Assembly: GCF_002263495.1 (NCBI RefSeq)
Contig: NZ_CP022753.1
Span: 5,882,312-5,946,311, forward strand
Source: Nocardiopsis gilva YIM 90087
GTDB taxonomy: Bacteria > Actinomycetota > Actinomycetes > Streptosporangiales > Streptosporangiaceae
Reading direction: 5' to 3'
Length of the DNA stretch: 64,000 bases
Positions 6,452-56,691 of the stretch are shown in pieces (the first letter of the stretch is position 1; every line of letters starts with the position of its first letter). A model generated the notes under the pieces. That model made no database searches. It saw only the letters and a program-made list of their open reading frames with translations, and had not been told where the DNA came from. Both the position numbers and the translations under genes were made by a program.

Positions 6452-7327
6452 TCAGAGCGTGAGCGGCACGTTGTCGATCAGCCGGGTCTTGCCGACCCAT
6501 GCGGCCACGGCGAGCACGGCCTCGCCCCGGAAGTCGTTGGGGACTTCACCGAACGTGTGCGCGTCGACCAGGGCGAGGTAGTCCACGGCGACCGGAGGGG
6601 TCGCCAGGGCCGCCTCGTCCAGAACGGCGCGAGCTGCGCTGAGGATACCGACCGGCCCGGTCACGGACGCGTCCGCCCCGGACAGCAGAGCGCGGGACAG
6701 CGCCAGCGCGGTGGTGCGCTCCTCGGGGCTGAGGTAGACGTTGCGGCTGGACGTGGCCAGGCCGTCGGCGTCGCGGACGGTCGGCGCGCCCATGACGGTG
6801 ATGGGCATGCACAGGTCGCGGACCATGCGGCGGACCACGGACAGCTGCTGGGCGTCCTTCTGGCCGAAGATGGCGACGTCCGGGCGGACCAGGTTGAACA
6901 GCTTGTTGACCACGGTGAGCACGCCCTCGAAGAACCCGGGACGGAACTCGCCCTCCAGCACCCGGCCCATCCTTCCCGGGCTGACCGTGACCATCTGCTC
7001 GCCCGGGTACATCACCTCGACCGGCGGGGCGAAGACCACGTCGACGCCGTCCTCCGCGCAGATCGCGAGGTCGTCGTCGAGCGTGCGCGGGTAGCGGTCG
7101 TAGTCCTCGTTCGGCCCGAACTGCAGGGGGTTGACGAAGATGCTGACCACCACGGTGTCGGCGTGGTCGCGCGCGGCCGCGATCAGGCTGCGGTGTCCGC
7201 TGTGCAGCGCCCCCATCGTGGGCACCAGCGCGACGCGGCCGAGGTTCGCGCGGAGCCGGTCCAGCTCCTCGGGCGTACGGGCGACGGCCGGGGCGGTGCG
7301 GGGAGGAGTGGTTGCCGGTTTGGTCAT
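6452..7327 (-). CDS. panC: Pantothenate synthetase (pantoate--beta-alanine ligase)
   Basis: Condenses pantoate with beta-alanine using ATP to make pantothenate. The 291-residue protein has the HIGH-type nucleotide motif [15 protein letters not shown], then [38 protein letters not shown] and [16 protein letters not shown]. The ATG at 7327 (MTKPATT) has a GAGG sequence nine bases upstream; a TTG five codons earlier is the alternative. It starts 46 bases after the DUF2520 gene and ends 117 bases before nadB-nadC. Many actinobacteria place panD directly after panC; here it is absent. Confidence 0.96.
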
Positions 7328-8257: not shown

Positions 8258-8553
8258 CGGATCGCTGCCCCTCGTTCCAGTCCACGGGCGGGTACCGGAC
8301 GTCGTGCGCACAGCCTACTGTCCGTAGTGGATCCCCAGCACGCTGCCCTACCTGGGGCCGGACGTGCGACGACACGAGAAATTGGGCCGACGCCGACGAA
8401 ACGGCCATTGGCTCGTGGAGCACCGAGTGGACCGGGAGCCCCCAGCGTCTGCTGCGCGGCCCCGGACGCAATCCCCGGATGATCGCCGGCACAGGCGGGA
8501 TTCTGCCCGCTTCGTCCCGCCGGAGACTGTGCACATCGTTCGAAAACGCGAAC

Positions 8554-51658: not shown

Positions 51659-51743
51659 GTCCGGGTGGCGGAATAGGTAGACGCGCTAGCTTGAGGTGCT
51701 AGTGCCCGTTAAGGGCATGGGGGTTCAAGTCCCCCCTCGGACA
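51659..51743 (+). tRNA. tRNA-Leu (anticodon GAG)
   Basis: A class II tRNA of 85 bases: acceptor GTCCGGG with CTCGGAC (one G-U pair), anticodon loop CTTGAGG (anticodon GAG), a long variable arm (TGCCCGTTAAGGGCA) and T-arm GGGGG TTCAAGT CCCCC. CCA is not encoded. Its 3' end borders the C-terminal remnant of a recombinase on the other strand, so it has served as an integration site. Confidence 0.96.
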
Positions 51744-51924
51744 CTTTCGATTCGCACACGTCGTGGAGGCGCGGTTTGATCCGTGCCTCCACGATTCGTG
51801 TTTCCGGGTGGTATTCGAGGTACAGCCCCATCTTCGCGTAGAGGTCGGCCTTGTCCTCCGGATCCGCGCGATGGACCACCGCAGCGAGCCCGGTGATCCC
51901 TTTCCACCATCGCGGCGGTCCCAT
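51709..51924 (-). pseudogene. C-terminal remnant of a serine integrase at tRNA-Leu
   Basis: The minus-strand peptide GITGLAAVVHRADPEDKADL then YAKMGLYLEYHPETRIVEAR matches the extreme C-terminal region of actinobacterial large serine recombinases (DADPADKAE-Y-LGL-L-Y-P pattern, from memory). Its last residues are translated from the tRNA-Leu 3' end, as happens when an integrase gene abuts its attachment site. The catalytic and DNA-binding domains are missing; the upstream boundary falls near 51900. I read it as a decayed integrated element of which only one end remains. Confidence 0.65.
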
Positions 51925-51998: not shown

Positions 51999-52547
51999 TC
52001 AGCGTCCGTCTTCGACGTCGAGCACGGAGATGTCCAACCGGGCGGTCCTCCAGCCGAGCTGGTCGCGGACGACCTCGGCCACCCGCGTGCGCAGAGCGGC
52101 GTCCACCCGCGGGACAGGAGTGCCCACGTGCAGCCGTACGCGCAACTCGATTTCGATCCCGTCCTCGCCCTCGATGAGCTCCGCGACGCGGGCGTCGGCC
52201 ACACCGGGGACGTCCTCTGCCGCCGTGCGCAGCACGGCGGCCGCAGCCGAGCGCCTGACCCGGGTCACCCCCTCCTCCTCTCCAGGCACCCGCAGGGCTC
52301 GGCGCGACCTCGGGTCGGCGCGGACCAGCCGCATCACGTCGTCGAGTAGGTGCGGTGGAGCCACCACGCGCTCCGCGGCGAGCTCGGACCGGGCGGCGAG
52401 CAGCACGCCGTGCTCCTCGACCGCCGCGCGGCAGTGCGGGCACCGCAGTTCATGCTCGGTCGGCTCGCCGTCGCGCTCGTGCGCCAGAACCGTGTCGATG
52501 TCGGAGCCGCACGGCAGCCGTTCATAGTCGGTGTGCTCTATCGCCAT
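51999..52547 (-). CDS. Asp23/Gls24 protein with N-terminal anti-sigma-like zinc motif
   Basis: A 182-residue two-part protein. Residues 1-60 look like a zinc-binding anti-sigma domain: LPCGSDIDTVLAHERDGEP, then THELRCPHCRAAVEEHG in outline, with H-x3-C-x2-C spacing. Residues about 95-182 are an Asp23/Gls24 (DUF322) domain: DVPGVADARVAELIEGEDGI, then LRVRLHVGTPVPRVDAALRT. Its ATG lies inside the 3' end of the sigma factor gene (10-base overlap), which supports a sigma/anti-sigma pair. The role is envelope stress by association; whether it binds the sigma factor is inferred. Confidence 0.78.
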   Translation of the reverse strand: MAIEHTDYERLPCGSDIDTVLAHERDGEPTEHELRCPHCRAAVEEHGVLLAARSELAAERVVAPPHLLDDVMRLVRADPRSRRALRVPGEEEGVTRVRRSAAAAVLRTAAEDVPGVADARVAELIEGEDGIEIELRVRLHVGTPVPRVDAALRTRVAEVVRDQLGWRTARLDISVLDVEDGR

Positions 52548-53089
52548 GGCTTCAGCGCCTCCACGAGGTGGGATCGGGCACGGTGGATGCGGCCGCGGAC
52601 GGCGTCCGTCGTCACACCGACGGTCTCAGCGATCTCGCCGTAGGTCATCTGCTCCATCTCGTACAGGATCCAGCAGACGCGCTGCTGCGGCGGAAGGTCG
52701 AGGAGGGCCTGGGCGAGGGCATCGCGCAGGCCGCTGGCGACCGTGTGGTGTTCGGGCCCGGCGCCGCGGCCGGTCCGCTCGCCTTCCAGGAGGTCGCTCG
52801 GCGACTCAGGGGTGCGCGCTCGCGCCGTATTCAGAGCGCGGCGCGTGACGATGCGGTAGAGCCACGCCCGGAATGTCGCTGGATCGTCCAGGTCGGGGAG
52901 GCGGCGCCATGCCGCGACGAGCGCCTCCTGCGACGCGTCCGCGGCGTCCGCCGGATCGTTCAGGACGCGCAAGGCGATCCGGTACACGGTGTCCTGATGC
53001 CGCCGAACCAGCACCTCGAACGCCGCGGCGTCGCCGTCCCGGGCGCGCTTGACCAGCGCCGTGTCGTCACAATACGGGGTATTTGCCAT
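52538..53089 (-). CDS. ECF-type RNA polymerase sigma factor
   Basis: A 183-residue sigma factor. Region 2 has FEVLVRRHQDTVYRIALRVL and ADASQEALVAAWRRLPDLDD; region 4 has LDLPPQQRVCWILYEMEQMT and YGEIAETVGVTTDAVRGRIH. No extra C-terminal domain. The ATG at 53089 is the first in frame. It overlaps the zinc-motif Asp23 gene by ten bases and is divergent from the CsbD-Asp23 operon, which may be its regulon; an autoregulatory promoter would lie in 53090-53338. Confidence 0.93.
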   Translation of the reverse strand: MANTPYCDDTALVKRARDGDAAAFEVLVRRHQDTVYRIALRVLNDPADAADASQEALVAAWRRLPDLDDPATFRAWLYRIVTRRALNTARARTPESPSDLLEGERTGRGAGPEHHTVASGLRDALAQALLDLPPQQRVCWILYEMEQMTYGEIAETVGVTTDAVRGRIHRARSHLVEALKPWR

Positions 53090-53338
53090 TCATCCGCCTG
53101 CGTCCGCAGCCACCCAGCCATATTACGCATAGTATTTCTGTATACACGGTCTGTGATAATCCGACGGGGGTGTCGGCCGCCTCGAATGTGTCCCAGCTCA
53201 CATTCGATTCCGCGTGAGGATGCGGGGGGCACGCGTGTCCTTAGGGGTGCGCGCTACTACCGGTAACACGGAAGCGCGATCGCTCCTCCCGGCACCGACG
53301 GGGCGGAGCGCGACACGAACGAACAGGGGGAACGAACG

Positions 53339-53536
53339 ATGGGCAACATCGAGAACGAGTTCGAGAACGCCAAGGGCAAAGCCAAGGAGACCGCCGGCAA
53401 GGCCATGGGGGACTCCGAGCTGGAGACCGAGGGCAAGCTCGACCAGGCCAAGGCCGGGATCGAGGACGCCGCGGAGGACGTCAAGGAGAAGGCCGGAGAG
53501 ACCGCCGAGAAGATCAAGAACGTCTTCAAGCGCTGA
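53339..53536 (+). CDS. CsbD family stress-response protein
   Basis: A 65-residue charged helical protein: NEFENAKGKAKETAGKAMGD, then LDQAKAGIEDAAEDVKEKAG. This is the typical CsbD pattern, a small protein induced by general stress in many bacteria; molecular role unknown. AGGGGG eight bases before the ATG supports the start. It heads the plus-strand envelope-stress cluster and is 31 bases from the next gene. Confidence 0.9.
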   Translation: MGNIENEFENAKGKAKETAGKAMGDSELETEGKLDQAKAGIEDAAEDVKEKAGETAEKIKNVFKR

Positions 53537-53567
53537 GCCGCCATGCACTGCACGGGGGGATGGAACA

Positions 53568-54044
53568 GTGACCGATTCGAAAGCAGAGCCCAAGGTGCCT
53601 GAAGCACGCGAGAAGAACGCCTCCGGGGCCGACGCCCGTGAGCTGGTAACGGCGAAGGGCACGACCTCGATCGCCGACCACGTCGTCGCGAAGATCGCGG
53701 GCATGGCCGCGCGGGAGGTGGGCGGCGTGCACAGCATGGGCGGCGGCGCCGCCCGGGCTTTCGGGGCCATGCGCGACCGGATTCCCGGCGCCACGACCTC
53801 CGGGACCGCTGCACGTGGAGTGTCCGTGGAGGTGGGCGAGCGCCAGACGGCGGCCGACATCGATCTGGTGATCGAGTACGGGGTGTCCATCCCCGACCTG
53901 GCGGCGGCGGTACGCCGCAACGTCATCACCGCCGTGGAGCGGATGACGGGCCTGGAGGTCACCGAGGTCAACATCACCATTGACGACATCTACCTGCCCG
54001 ACGACGAGGTCGACGACGGTGGATCCGAGCCGCGCGTCCAGTGA
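53568..54044 (+). CDS. Asp23/Gls24 family envelope stress protein
   Basis: A 158-residue protein with one DUF322 domain: TTSIADHVVAKIAGMAAREV, then GVSVEVGERQTAADIDLVIE, and VRRNVITAVERMTGLEVTEV. In Staphylococcus Asp23 lies under the membrane and is held there by AmaP; an AmaP-like gene is found 2 kb downstream. The GTG at 53568 has GGGGGG shortly upstream. It overlaps the next gene's GTG at 54019. Confidence 0.9.
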   Translation: MTDSKAEPKVPEAREKNASGADARELVTAKGTTSIADHVVAKIAGMAAREVGGVHSMGGGAARAFGAMRDRIPGATTSGTAARGVSVEVGERQTAADIDLVIEYGVSIPDLAAAVRRNVITAVERMTGLEVTEVNITIDDIYLPDDEVDDGGSEPRVQ

Positions 54045-54405
54045 GTCCCGCGCCTCCCGCCCGCACTCCAGGGCGGGAGGCGCGGACTCGGCGACCGGAG
54101 CGGGCGGCGCGGACCACCGTGCGCGGATCGCGCGGGAGATCGCCAACCGGGTGCGCGGCCTCTCCGAGGTCGTCGACCTGTCGGCGGGTGCCTTCCGCAC
54201 CACCGCCACGTTTACCCCGGGAGACCGGATCGAGGGTGTGTCGGTGCGCGAGAACGCCGTCGCGATCGGGGTCGTGCTGCGCTGCGGCCGGCCGATCCCG
54301 GAGGTCGCGGAGGAGATCCGCGCGCTGGTCGCACCGATGGCACCGGGACGGCGCGTGGACGTGTCCGTCGAGGACGTGGCCGCCGACGTCGCGGACCGGG
54401 GTTGA
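54019..54405 (+). CDS. Short Asp23/Gls24-like protein
   Basis: About 128 residues in another frame, overlapping the upstream gene by 26 bases. After an S/A/G-rich start the core reads HRARIAREIANRVRGLSEVV, then ENAVAIGVVLRCGRPIPEVA and MAPGRRVDVSVEDVAAD, a reduced Asp23-like fold. The GTG at 54019 has GAGG nine bases upstream. Likely cotranslated with the previous gene. Confidence 0.75.
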   Translation: MDPSRASSESRASRPHSRAGGADSATGAGGADHRARIAREIANRVRGLSEVVDLSAGAFRTTATFTPGDRIEGVSVRENAVAIGVVLRCGRPIPEVAEEIRALVAPMAPGRRVDVSVEDVAADVADRG

Positions 54406-54409
54406 TCCG

Positions 54410-54679
54410 GTGCGCGGGCGGCCGCGCGACCAGCGCGGGGCCTACCGGGCCTGGGTCCGCGAGAACCACCCCGACCGGGGCGGCGATCCGCAGGCTTTCG
54501 CCGAGGGCCTGGCGCGATGGCGCCGGTCGCTGGGCGAACCGGGTGCCCGGCCATCAGGGGACGGCCGGGCACCCGGCGGGATCCGGGCGTTCCGGGCGCC
54601 GAGAGGGCCCGCCGCGTGGGTGCTGCTCGCGCTGCGCCGCAGGGCGGCCCGGCGCGAGCGGGCGCGGCGGCTGCGATGA
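54410..54679 (+). CDS. Small J-domain-like basic protein
   Basis: An 89-residue arginine-rich protein: GAYRAWVRENHPDRGGDPQA, then FAEGLARWRRSL and WVLLALRRRAARRERARR. The HPDRGGDP motif resembles the HPD loop of DnaJ, but the four-helix J-domain is not complete, so co-chaperone activity is doubtful. The GTG at 54410 follows the preceding stop by four bases. Found within Asp23 clusters in related actinobacteria as far as I recall. Confidence 0.65.
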   Translation: MRGRPRDQRGAYRAWVRENHPDRGGDPQAFAEGLARWRRSLGEPGARPSGDGRAPGGIRAFRAPRGPAAWVLLALRRRAARRERARRLR

Positions 54680-54697
54680 AAAGCGAGGAGGGTGGCC

Positions 54698-54868
54698 ATG
54701 TGGCCCATCGTGGGACTGGCCTACGGCACGGTACTGGCACTGGCGGCCGCGTTCGGCGGTTTCGGGGCGTTCGCGCTGGTGCTCGTACTCGGCATGGTCG
54801 GCTTTTTGGCCGGCCGCGCCTATGAGGGCGAAATCGACCTGTCCGAGCTGTTCCTCCGGCGTCGGTAG
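54698..54868 (+). CDS. Small two-helix membrane protein (DUF2273-like)
   Basis: 56 residues, missing from a long-ORF list because of its size. Two helices: WPIVGLAYGTVLALAAAFGG and FGAFALVLVLGMVGFLAGRA, then a charged tail (YEGEIDLSELFLRRR). GGAGGG at ideal spacing before the ATG supports it. Small DUF2273 proteins accompany Asp23/AmaP in Gram-positive bacteria, and position and topology fit that role. Confidence 0.8.
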   Translation: MWPIVGLAYGTVLALAAAFGGFGAFALVLVLGMVGFLAGRAYEGEIDLSELFLRRR

Positions 54869-54946
54869 CGCCCTCGGGAACACGGGACGCACCAGGGACG
54901 CCGAAGGGACAGGGAACGGGCGAGGCCCGAGAAAGGGGGCGGTGGC

Positions 54947-55366
54947 ATGACGGCGATCACGGCGCCCGGGCACCCGCCACGGCAGCGGGGAGGTGCTGCC
55001 GCGCACGGGCACGGCAGCACGACGATTCCCGAACGGGTCGTCACCAAGATCGCCGCACGTGCTGCTGCGGAGGTGCCGGGAGTCGGCGAGGTCAGCGGCG
55101 GTCTCGGGCGACTAGTCGGAGCCGGAGCGGGGCCCGCCCGGGTCACCGTCCGCCTCAGCGGCCGGGAAGCGGAGCGCACGGCGACCATCCGGCTGGGCAT
55201 CGCCGTGCGCTATCCGCGCCCCGCCGCGACGACCGCCCGACGTGTACGGGAGCACGTCGCGCACACGGTCGAGCGGCTCACCGGGATACGCGTGGGCCGC
55301 GTCGACATCGAGGTCGTTGAGCTGCTCCGCGGAGACGCGGCCGGAGACCGGGCGCAGCCGAGATGA
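54947..55366 (+). CDS. Asp23/Gls24 family envelope stress protein
   Basis: A 139-residue protein: STTIPERVVTKIAARAAAEV, then RVTVRLSGREAERTATIRLG, and VREHVAHTVERLTGIRVGRV. A further complete DUF322 domain of the cluster. AAGGGGG precedes the ATG. Repeated Asp23 paralogues in one operon suggest a hetero-oligomeric envelope layer, an inference from gene content. Confidence 0.9.
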   Translation: MTAITAPGHPPRQRGGAAAHGHGSTTIPERVVTKIAARAAAEVPGVGEVSGGLGRLVGAGAGPARVTVRLSGREAERTATIRLGIAVRYPRPAATTARRVREHVAHTVERLTGIRVGRVDIEVVELLRGDAAGDRAQPR

Positions 55367-55439
55367 GCGGAGTTGTTCCGCACCGATGCGGATCGGGACC
55401 ACGAGAGCGGATGCCATGCGGGACGGGGAGGACGCACCG

Positions 55440-56048
55440 ATGACGACAACGGCGGACACCGAGTGGAGCGCGCCGGACCCGGGTACGGCCGAGCGGGCCC
55501 GCCGGGTGGCGGTGCGCGCCTTCCGGCCGTACCGGATATGGCCGACGGTGATCGCGGCGGTGCTGCTGCTCGCTGTGGCGGGCACGGCGGCGGCCGAGGT
55601 GATCTCCGCGCTGGCCGGTGTGCCGCTGGGCATCCCGTTCATCGGCACGGCGGCCCAGCGGGTCGGCGGCGCCCAGTGGAACGCCCCGGAGGTGCAGTTC
55701 GCCTCGGCGGCCCTGGCTCTGATCGGCCTGCTGCTGATCGCGGTGGCGCTGCTGCCCGGCGAGGGCCGGTGGGCGGCGCTGCACACCGGCGACCCCGATC
55801 TCATCGTCGGCCTGTCCCGGCCCGCCCTCCGACGGACGCTGACCGCGGCGGCGCTGGGCACCGGCGGGGTGGATTCGGCCAAGGTGGCGGTGCGGCGCCG
55901 ACGGATCCGCGTGCGCGTACGCACCGAACTGGCCGAGACCGCGGAGCTTCGGGCGGCGGTCACCGCCACAGTGGAGGAGCGCCTGGCGGACATCGCTCCG
56001 CTGCGCTCCTACAGGGTGACCACCACCGTGCGGCGGACGAAGCCATAA
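55440..56048 (+). CDS. DUF6286 membrane protein of the Asp23 cluster
   Basis: About 202 residues. A first helix (IWPTVIAAVLLLAVAGTAAA) and a second (SAALALIGLLLIAVALLPGE) bracket an extracytoplasmic loop; the C-terminal half is an Asp23-partner-like alpha/beta domain with AAALGTGGVDSAKVAVRRRR. DUF6286 proteins are typical of actinobacterial Asp23 clusters. GGAGG at eight bases selects the ATG at 55440 over the one at 55416. It probably anchors or senses at the membrane. Confidence 0.82.
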   Translation: MTTTADTEWSAPDPGTAERARRVAVRAFRPYRIWPTVIAAVLLLAVAGTAAAEVISALAGVPLGIPFIGTAAQRVGGAQWNAPEVQFASAALALIGLLLIAVALLPGEGRWAALHTGDPDLIVGLSRPALRRTLTAAALGTGGVDSAKVAVRRRRIRVRVRTELAETAELRAAVTATVEERLADIAPLRSYRVTTTVRRTKP

Positions 56049-56094
56049 ACACGCGCTGGGATGACGGCGCAGAGGCGTGAAGAGGGCGAGGACA

Positions 56095-56691
56095 GTGGGC
56101 GAGAGGAACAGGGCGCGCCGCTCGGCGCGCGGCAACCGGTGGGGGCTGGCCCTCCTGGGCGTGCTGCTGCTCGGCGGCGGAACGGCGTCACTCGCCGCGG
56201 GCCGGGGGCTGCTCGGCGGACGGGTCGCCGAGGTGGAGATCGCCGGTACGCCGGAGCTCATCGAACAAGCAGGGGCCTGGCTGCCGTGGGCGGTCGCCGC
56301 CCTGCTGGTCCTGGTGGCGCTGCTGGCACTGCGCTGGCTGCTGGTCCAGCTGCGCACCGACGCGGTCGGGCGGATCGCGCTCGGTGACCACGACGCCCGA
56401 GGCCGCACCGAGCTCAGCTCCAAGGCAGCGCGGACGGCCTTCGAACGACAGGTCCTCGACATCCCGGGCGTGCGCCGCGCCCACGCCGCCGTGACGGAGT
56501 CGGCCCAGCGGCCGCACCTGCGCCTCGACGCCACGGTGGACGAGGACACCGACGTCGAGAACGTGTGGCGGCGCCTCCGCGCCGAGGCGCTGCACGACAT
56601 GCGCACCGCCCTGGAGCTCGACCGCCTGCCAACTGTGGTTCGGCTCTCCATGGCCGCCCCGCCTCGCCATCCAAGACACCGACCGGCCTGA
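56095..56691 (+). CDS. AmaP-like Asp23 membrane anchor
   Basis: About 198 residues with two helices (WGLALLGVLLLGGGTASLAA, WAVAALLVLVALLALRWLLV) and a cytoplasmic domain (LSSKAARTAFERQVLDIPGV, then RLRAEALHDMRTALELDRLP). The topology matches AmaP, which tethers Asp23 to the membrane in Staphylococcus. GTG at 56095 has AGAGGG eight bases upstream; GTG at 56077 is an alternative. It is the last gene of the cluster. Confidence 0.78.
   Translation: MGERNRARRSARGNRWGLALLGVLLLGGGTASLAAGRGLLGGRVAEVEIAGTPELIEQAGAWLPWAVAALLVLVALLALRWLLVQLRTDAVGRIALGDHDARGRTELSSKAARTAFERQVLDIPGVRRAHAAVTESAQRPHLRLDATVDEDTDVENVWRRLRAEALHDMRTALELDRLPTVVRLSMAAPPRHPRHRPA

Follow-up and report, generated by a model that had tools for sequence, protein, structure and literature searches.

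A predicted sigma/anti-sigma switch with an Asp23-like domain beside a divergent Asp23 operon in Nocardiopsis gilva

In a stretch of 64,000 nucleotides from Nocardiopsis gilva YIM 90087 (contig NZ_CP022753.1, positions 5,882,312 to 5,946,311; hereafter the window), which belongs to a genome of 6.1 Mb in one contig, a gene for an extracytoplasmic function (ECF) sigma factor and a gene for a predicted soluble anti-sigma factor (ASF) lie together on the minus strand and diverge from a plus-strand operon for Asp23-family, DUF6286 and AmaP-like proteins. Comparisons of sequences across actinomycete genomes make it probable that the sigma factor and ASF form a switch that controls the divergent operon. 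As to the parts of this reading, ASF very likely holds its sigma factor through an anti-sigma domain, and we are equally inclined to believe that the sigma factor transcribes the operon from a candidate promoter in front of it. The features on which the proposal is built are as follows.

52538-53089, minus strand: ECF sigma factor, 183 residues, sigma2 and sigma4 regions (Pfam Sigma70_r2 E 9.7e-19, Sigma70_r4_2 E 3.6e-13)
51999-52547, minus strand: ASF, predicted soluble anti-sigma factor, 182 residues, N-terminal anti-sigma domain and C-terminal Asp23-like domain
52290-52547, minus strand: predicted anti-sigma domain of ASF, residues 1-86, with C13, H32, C36 and C39; helix 4 is residues 67-76
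51999-52259, minus strand: Asp23-like domain of ASF, approximately residues 97-182 (Pfam Asp23 E 2.8e-4, below cut-off; AlphaFold2 (AF2) model)
53214-53239, plus strand: candidate sigma promoter GTGAG-N15-CGTGTC, reading toward the operon

The sigma factor consists of sigma2 and sigma4 regions only, as is characteristic of the ECF family, with Pfam and NCBIfam matches above cut-off (100.9 bits against NCBIfam TIGR02937, sigma70-ECF, cut-off 42.9). ASF starts inside the sigma gene, giving an overlap of 10 nucleotides (52538-52547). The original prediction had described a sigma gene overlapping a fusion of an anti-sigma-like zinc motif and an Asp23 domain, both divergent from a CsbD/Asp23/DUF6286/AmaP-like operon, and the reading frames, strands and Pfam matches agree with that description. 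It had also taken the zinc-motif protein to be anti-sigma-like, which is borne out by the N-terminal domain of ASF. This domain has four helices and carries the ligand motif C-x18-H-x3-C-x2-C. An AF2 model of full-length ASF (56 sequences, mean pLDDT 89.5, pTM 0.59) has helices at residues 17-25, 31-35, 37-45, 47-58 and 67-76, followed by an alpha/beta Asp23-like domain, and a model of the isolated anti-sigma domain (mean pLDDT 86.4) has helices at 17-25, 31-35, 37-58 and 67-77. When an N-terminal profile of 45 sequences was compared with all PDB sequences, the top two matches were the anti-sigma proteins 3hug_B (E 1.2e-4), presumably RslA, and RsiW (5wuq_C, E 9.5e-4), while a third, DdvA (E 0.055), ranked below an unrelated zinc finger (E 0.0065). 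RsiW is a membrane protein and 3hug_B is titled as one; ASF shares with them profile homology, the Hx3Cx2C motif and a three-helix part plus helix 4, but has the Asp23-like domain in place of the membrane part. The NCBIfam antisigma model is matched by 16 of the 45 N-termini at E <= 0.01 (best 3.4e-6), and the RsrA and ChrR models by one each; no Pfam anti-sigma model is matched by the ASF N-termini. The modeled domain has the architecture of a class I anti-sigma domain (ASDI), in which three helices form a bundle and are followed by a linker and helix 4 (PMC7406223; papers are cited here by PubMed Central number, for individual passages).

The full-length ASF profile also matches proteins of other genomes by the N-terminus alone. 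Among the matches listed, 13 of 14 such loci have the match about 100 nucleotides or less after an ECF sigma gene on the same strand, the sigma gene of the remaining one (L129) being on the opposite strand, and several of the matched proteins look by eye like ordinary membrane anti-sigma factors; these loci (L119-L132), which have the anti-sigma domain only, are excluded from the counts of sigma/ASF loci given below. The second domain of ASF scores 21.7 bits against Pfam Asp23 (PF03780), short of the gathering score of 28, and for this reason we term it Asp23-like. An E of 1e-6 or better against Asp23 is reached by six of 56 ASF homologues (the lowest being 8.4e-9), and the window protein is not one of the six. 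Searches of the PDB with ASF and with Asp23 protein A of the operon using phmmer gave nothing useful. The model of the Asp23-like domain resembles C-terminal domains of cation diffusion facilitator (CDF) transporters (MamM, Z 11.5, root-mean-square deviation 1.9 over 77 residues) and, at a lower level, the secretion-system proteins EscJ (Z 9.7) and PrgH/PrgK (Foldseek E 3.8e-4); we read this modeled likeness as a common fold and claim no function from it.

Genes related to ASF are widespread, with 22 of 120 genomes of the window's family matching at E <= 0.001 and at least 144 of 393 genomes of its class. At least 42 matches are nearly full-length (query start <= 15, end >= 176, judged by eye), with no more than 8 candidates scored in any genome, and these come from at least seven actinomycete families. 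In each locus ASF was picked by position, since the iterated ASF and Asp23 A profiles overlap. The alignment of the 26 loci L005-L030 contains 21, with L025, L026 and L030 lacking matches and L028 and L029 omitted; alignment A2 omits L070 and L087, and alignment A5 contains 45 of the 56 rows of A2, which gives three-cysteine and zinc-rich rows a larger weight in it. The sigma and ASF genes are tightly coupled: among 57 pairs in other loci the overlap is exactly 10 nucleotides in 45 and 4 nucleotides in 7, and with the recurrent gene order this led us to reject a chance neighborhood. A DUF6286 or AmaP-type gene is present in 54 of 59 sigma-bearing loci and another Asp23-type gene in 55 of 59 (window included, within the fetched stretch), the DUF6286, AmaP and Asp23-type profiles overlapping one another. 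As side observations, Trp-Arg forms the C-terminal end of 55 of 58 sigma proteins, the bases of the 10-nucleotide overlap also encoding the Met-Ala start of ASF, and in L063-L070 and L072 the sigma strand carries an additional Asp23-like gene after ASF.

Because most loci had been found through ASF, a second test started from the sigma factor alone, using the best 80 of 543 confirmed loci in a scan of named genomes. Nine of these 80, from Streptomyces and Actinacidiphila, have a close sigma factor with 53-78% identity (one of them, L176, is the same locus as L070). After these nine sigma genes ASF is intact in six cases, frameshifted in one, a remnant in one and not recognized in one, whereas none of the 71 more distant sigma genes among the best 80 has an Asp23-type neighbor within 3 kb (E 1e-5). 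It is also possible to suppose that ASF is no more than an ordinary Asp23 protein, that its zinc motif has nothing to do with the sigma factor and that the latter is controlled otherwise. This would accord with the fact that Pfam and NCBIfam do not call the window ASF an anti-sigma factor at their cut-offs. We nevertheless regard it as highly improbable given the homology of the N-terminal profile to anti-sigma proteins, the recurrent 10-nucleotide overlap and the absence of the anti-sigma domain in eight loci without an adjacent sigma gene, described below. Moreover, the Hx3Cx2C motif is found in none of 136 other Asp23-type open reading frames of these loci, examined over the domain and the 80 residues preceding it.

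Dyad counting in the upstream regions, with no motif preset, gave one strong signal, which toward the operon has the general form GTGA(G/C)-N15-CGTGTC. The window element lies 99 nucleotides before the CsbD start codon and 125 nucleotides from the sigma start codon. Occurrences were counted with the pattern GTGA-N16/17-GTGTC, so that the full CGTGTC was not required, and expected counts come from first-order Markov shuffles, the related loci not being independent (L114 and L138 share one genome, and L111 is from the window's genus). Within the window's family the element is present in 19 of 23 loci against 0.21 expected, on the operon side in all; in L099 and L103 it lies between the sigma gene and the operon, outside the counted stretch, and in L117 and L118 the exact form is absent. 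Of the 36 sigma-bearing loci outside the family, 12 carry it (0.35 expected); none of eight Streptomyces loci without an adjacent sigma gene does. The spacers differ, and the conservation of the element is thus not plain sequence identity. In Streptomyces the best near-match before Asp23 A differs from the element at 0-2 positions in all nine sigma-bearing loci and at 3-4 in all eight others, the mismatch cut-off having been chosen after seeing the data and two of the nine sites lying far upstream. A related GTGACGAAT element, GT[GA]A[CG]GAA, is present in 14 of 36 loci of other families (1.1 expected) and in 2 of 23 of the window's family (0.7 expected), its loci having a varied -10. These results support the link between the sigma factor and the operon that had been proposed earlier, in that a candidate promoter precedes the divergent operon and is not found in the loci where no sigma gene adjoins. 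In L105 the element occurs twice on the plus strand, at 7207-7232 before Asp23 A and at 8405-8430 before the DUF6286 gene.

With regard to the extent of the regulon, the GTGAG form occurs 11 times in the genome of a genus mate against 4 for the reversed control, and the cluster site is the only one common to the window's genome and this one other genome of the genus. A large regulon was rejected on the grounds that the pattern is only about twice as frequent as its reversed control and that a single site is shared; a regulon local to the cluster is the simplest reading of these genome sequences, and we claim nothing beyond the cluster. Autoregulation of the sigma gene was likewise rejected, as the element precedes it in 6 of 59 loci and in none of the window's family.

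Natural variants of the locus bear on the switch in three ways. First, eight Streptomyces loci (L092-L096, L133, L134 and L136) have the Asp23/DUF6286/AmaP operon and a divergent Asp23-like gene with no adjacent sigma gene. In all eight the match of the divergent protein starts near the end of helix 4, i.e., without the anti-sigma domain, and in none of the eight does this protein have Hx3Cx2C or CxxC. Second, in four minimal loci (L103, L109, L115 and L138) the sigma gene and ASF diverge from a lone gene for a DUF6286-type membrane protein, no further Asp23 protein being recognized nearby, and the element precedes the DUF6286 gene in three of the four. Third, sigma factor and Asp23-like domain are fused in one open frame in genomes G085 and G482 of a single genus (two of the four genomes searched), at L080:5968-6945 and L167:1477-2457, both on the minus strand. 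These fusions, which are 71% identical to each other with dN/dS about 0.6-0.7, consist of the sigma factor, a helix-4-like stretch and the Asp23-like domain, the zinc part being missing.

Several results weigh against the proposed control of the operon by the sigma factor and ASF. By itself, the window ASF N-terminus matches no anti-sigma family at E <= 0.01, a Foldseek search with the model of its anti-sigma domain gave no significant match, and VIA-align of the same model found RsiW only, with a weak Z of 2.8 and a root-mean-square deviation of 4.6 over 62 residues. The exact promoter element is missing from 24 of the 36 sigma-bearing loci outside the window's family, and the lineage-matched contrast within Streptomyces is small (4 of 9 sigma-bearing loci against 0 of 8, one-sided p 0.05). 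The window's genome contains 16 copies of the GTGAG form and 7 of its reversed control, which, together with the single shared site, indicates that the element alone is not specific. No DUF6286 or AmaP gene lies within the fetched stretch in 5 of 59 loci, the absence of a sigma gene from the Streptomyces loci is judged within the fetched 12 kb only, and one of these loci, L133, has a different sigma-like open reading frame (106 bits) about 1.5 kb away. Finally, the dN/dS of the fusions implies weak constraint, and decay is possible.

In the mechanism that we propose, by analogy with solved complexes, helices 1-3 of ASF, probably pinned by zinc in the window protein, would sit on sigma4 and helix 4 on sigma2. 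Phylogenetic footprinting suggests that release from ASF would allow the sigma factor to direct RNA polymerase to GTGAG-N15-CGTGTC at 53214-53239, so that its activity would yield more CsbD, Asp23 proteins and DUF6286/AmaP-type membrane proteins. The Asp23-like domain would occupy the position of the transmembrane or sensor part of ordinary anti-sigma factors. At the weakest step of the mechanism, this domain would most likely dock on the membrane proteins of the operon or on the Asp23 layer, and ASF would hold or free the sigma factor according to the state of that layer. Such docking is, in our tentative assessment, the most likely signal input, because the Asp23-like domain is in the sensor position and the Asp23 protein of Staphylococcus aureus is held at the membrane by AmaP, and because a DUF6286/AmaP-type gene accompanies nearly all sigma-bearing loci and the minimal ones. 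It is conceivable, and we put it with reserve, that the domain acts as the sensor itself, ASF on the Asp23/DUF6286/AmaP layer freeing the sigma factor when the layer is disturbed or in short supply. The suggestion in the original prediction that envelope state is linked to transcription is not supported as it was worded. Its companion idea, that an Asp23-type structural protein itself sequesters the sigma factor, was overstated, since ASF, which is Asp23-like but divergent and has a further domain attached, is distinct from the bulk Asp23 proteins of the operon.

A rather doubtful alternative to docking is partner exchange, in which free Asp23 protein from the operon, or a J-like/DnaK machinery, would displace the sigma factor from ASF and provide feedback on abundance with no sensing of the envelope. 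The second domain of ASF is indeed of the same kind as the main products of the operon, and several of these operons encode a J-like protein. On the other hand, 4 of 59 loci have sigma factor, ASF and DUF6286 protein but no other recognized Asp23 protein, and the J-like protein is recognized in only 10 loci. ASF could instead be chiefly a cytoplasmic redox or zinc sensor, with an Asp23-like domain that is inert or serves merely for proximity to the membrane. This would make ASF similar to RsrA and ChrR, redox or stress sensors with other or no C-terminal domains, which are also soluble and also carry the zinc motif. The window ASF does have the full C-H-C-C set, as do 41 of 56 homologues, and a zinc motif is present in about 72% of soluble class I anti-sigma domains, where the authors tie it to redox sensing (PMC7406223). 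The same source also describes zinc motifs with a merely structural role, as in RsiW, and the remaining homologues of ASF (three cysteines only in 4, neither in 11) keep the gene order and the Asp23-like domain, so that the zinc set, unlike that of RsrA and ChrR, appears dispensable in the ASF family. Furthermore, four homologues without ligands (L097, L098, L135 and L137) have apparently lost the three-helix part and kept a helix-4-like segment. We therefore consider a primary redox or zinc sensor unlikely. The 15 incomplete homologues, which keep the architecture, also led us to reject the zinc motif as an essential feature, and the earlier view that this motif is what makes ASF an anti-sigma factor did not hold. 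Helix 4 is described as the sigma2-binding, specificity-giving part of ASDI, and some anti-sigma groups contain members both with and without zinc (PMC7406223), both of which fit a variable zinc site in the ASF family.

Returning to the sigma/ASF switch, its closest relatives in print are the ECF286 and ECF292 groups, whose sigma genes adjoin genes for soluble Asp23-family proteins with a predicted anti-sigma function, a prediction from the Casas-Pastor 2021 classification as cited in PMC8999054, with Streptomyces rimosus and Mycolicibacterium cosmeticum as named examples. The anti-sigma role of such Asp23-family proteins is thus already predicted and is not new here. The window pair shares with these groups a sigma factor next to a soluble Asp23-type predicted anti-sigma factor, as seen in the weak Asp23 match, the AF2 model and the coupling of the two genes, and the likeness is one of gene neighborhood rather than of a group sigma model; no S. 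rimosus record is among the best 80 of the 543 sigma loci. In contrast, the relevant passages of PMC8999054 mention no Asp23-fused anti-sigma domain, promoter, minimal module or sigma-Asp23 fusion. An anti-sigma factor of the Asp23 type does not appear in the Asp23 passages of PMC9769785, PMC6954212, PMC8317367, PMC12029717, PMC8144471 and PMC10128001, nor do the group names searched for appear in the sections covered of PMC7406223 and PMC8103513. The papers searched, which did not extend to supplements and most subscription papers, yielded no description of an Asp23-like-fused anti-sigma domain whose zinc ligands vary, of the promoter, of a minimal module or of a sigma-Asp23 fusion. The promoter and the membrane-anchor link are new inferences of this work.

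The staphylococcal asp23 gene is controlled by SigB. In S. aureus, Asp23 is held at the membrane by AmaP of the same operon and forms filaments, and the cell wall stress response sets in when either protein is lost; what Asp23 does at the molecular level is described as unclear, and the passages on this operon name no sigma factor or anti-sigma domain within it (PMC6954212). Two expression studies offer no more than possible hints at the signal: Asp23/Gls24 and CsbD genes of the actinobacterium Curtobacterium aetherium go up together on drying (PMC12029717), and ethanol shock lowers the expression of one Asp23 gene in Streptomyces venezuelae (PMC9769785). If the proposed sensing is correct, a layer lining the inside of the envelope would itself report on its condition, with no need for a sensor on the outer side of the membrane, and the minimal unit for doing so would be a sigma factor, ASF and one DUF6286 membrane protein. 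The sigma/ASF pair would also offer a direct handle on Asp23, with a predicted binding pair, a predicted promoter ready for reporter fusion and a predicted local regulon. Loci without the sigma gene, zinc-less homologues and fusions would serve as natural controls, and the prediction published for two ECF groups would become a mechanism that can be tested.

The divergent operon contains the following genes.

53339-53536, plus strand: CsbD-like small protein (Pfam CsbD E 6.3e-13)
53568-54044, plus strand: Asp23 family protein A (Pfam Asp23 E 9.9e-30)
53980-54405, plus strand: Asp23-like protein B, open frame (weak Pfam Asp23 match, E 0.028; related open reading frames at other loci)
54410-54679, plus strand: small J-like protein with HPDRGGD (Pfam DnaJ E 0.3)
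54692-54868, plus strand: small membrane protein, DUF2273-like (Pfam DUF2273 E 0.002, below cut-off; recurrent in these loci)
54947-55366, plus strand: Asp23 family protein C (Pfam Asp23 E 2.5e-14)
55416-56048, plus strand: DUF6286 protein, two hydrophobic segments seen by eye (Pfam DUF6286 E 6.2e-26)
56077-56691, plus strand: AmaP-like membrane protein (NCBIfam anchor_AmaP, NF033218, 49.1 bits)

Of the three Asp23-family proteins originally counted in this operon, A and C are clear and the third, protein B, which probably starts at the GTG at 54019 as judged by eye, is a weak match. J-like and AmaP-like proteins are likewise present as had been described, both falling below their family cut-offs. 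The AmaP-type protein is named AmaP-like because its score is under the NF033218 cut-off of 55 bits, and the J-like protein is so termed on account of its 11.7 bits against Pfam DnaJ (PF00226), under the gathering score of 27.8. By eye, the J-like protein has a basic tail and only half a J domain, and all 10 J-like sequences found in these operons, window included, have the HPDxGGD motif; the protein might recruit DnaK to the Asp23 layer. A further weak Asp23 match (G000:C1:1773220-1773456, L003), with 22.3 bits and thus below cut-off, lies at another place in the window's genome. A gene for tRNA-Leu (gag) at 51659-51744 (plus strand) lies shortly past the 3' end of the ASF gene, on the opposite strand.

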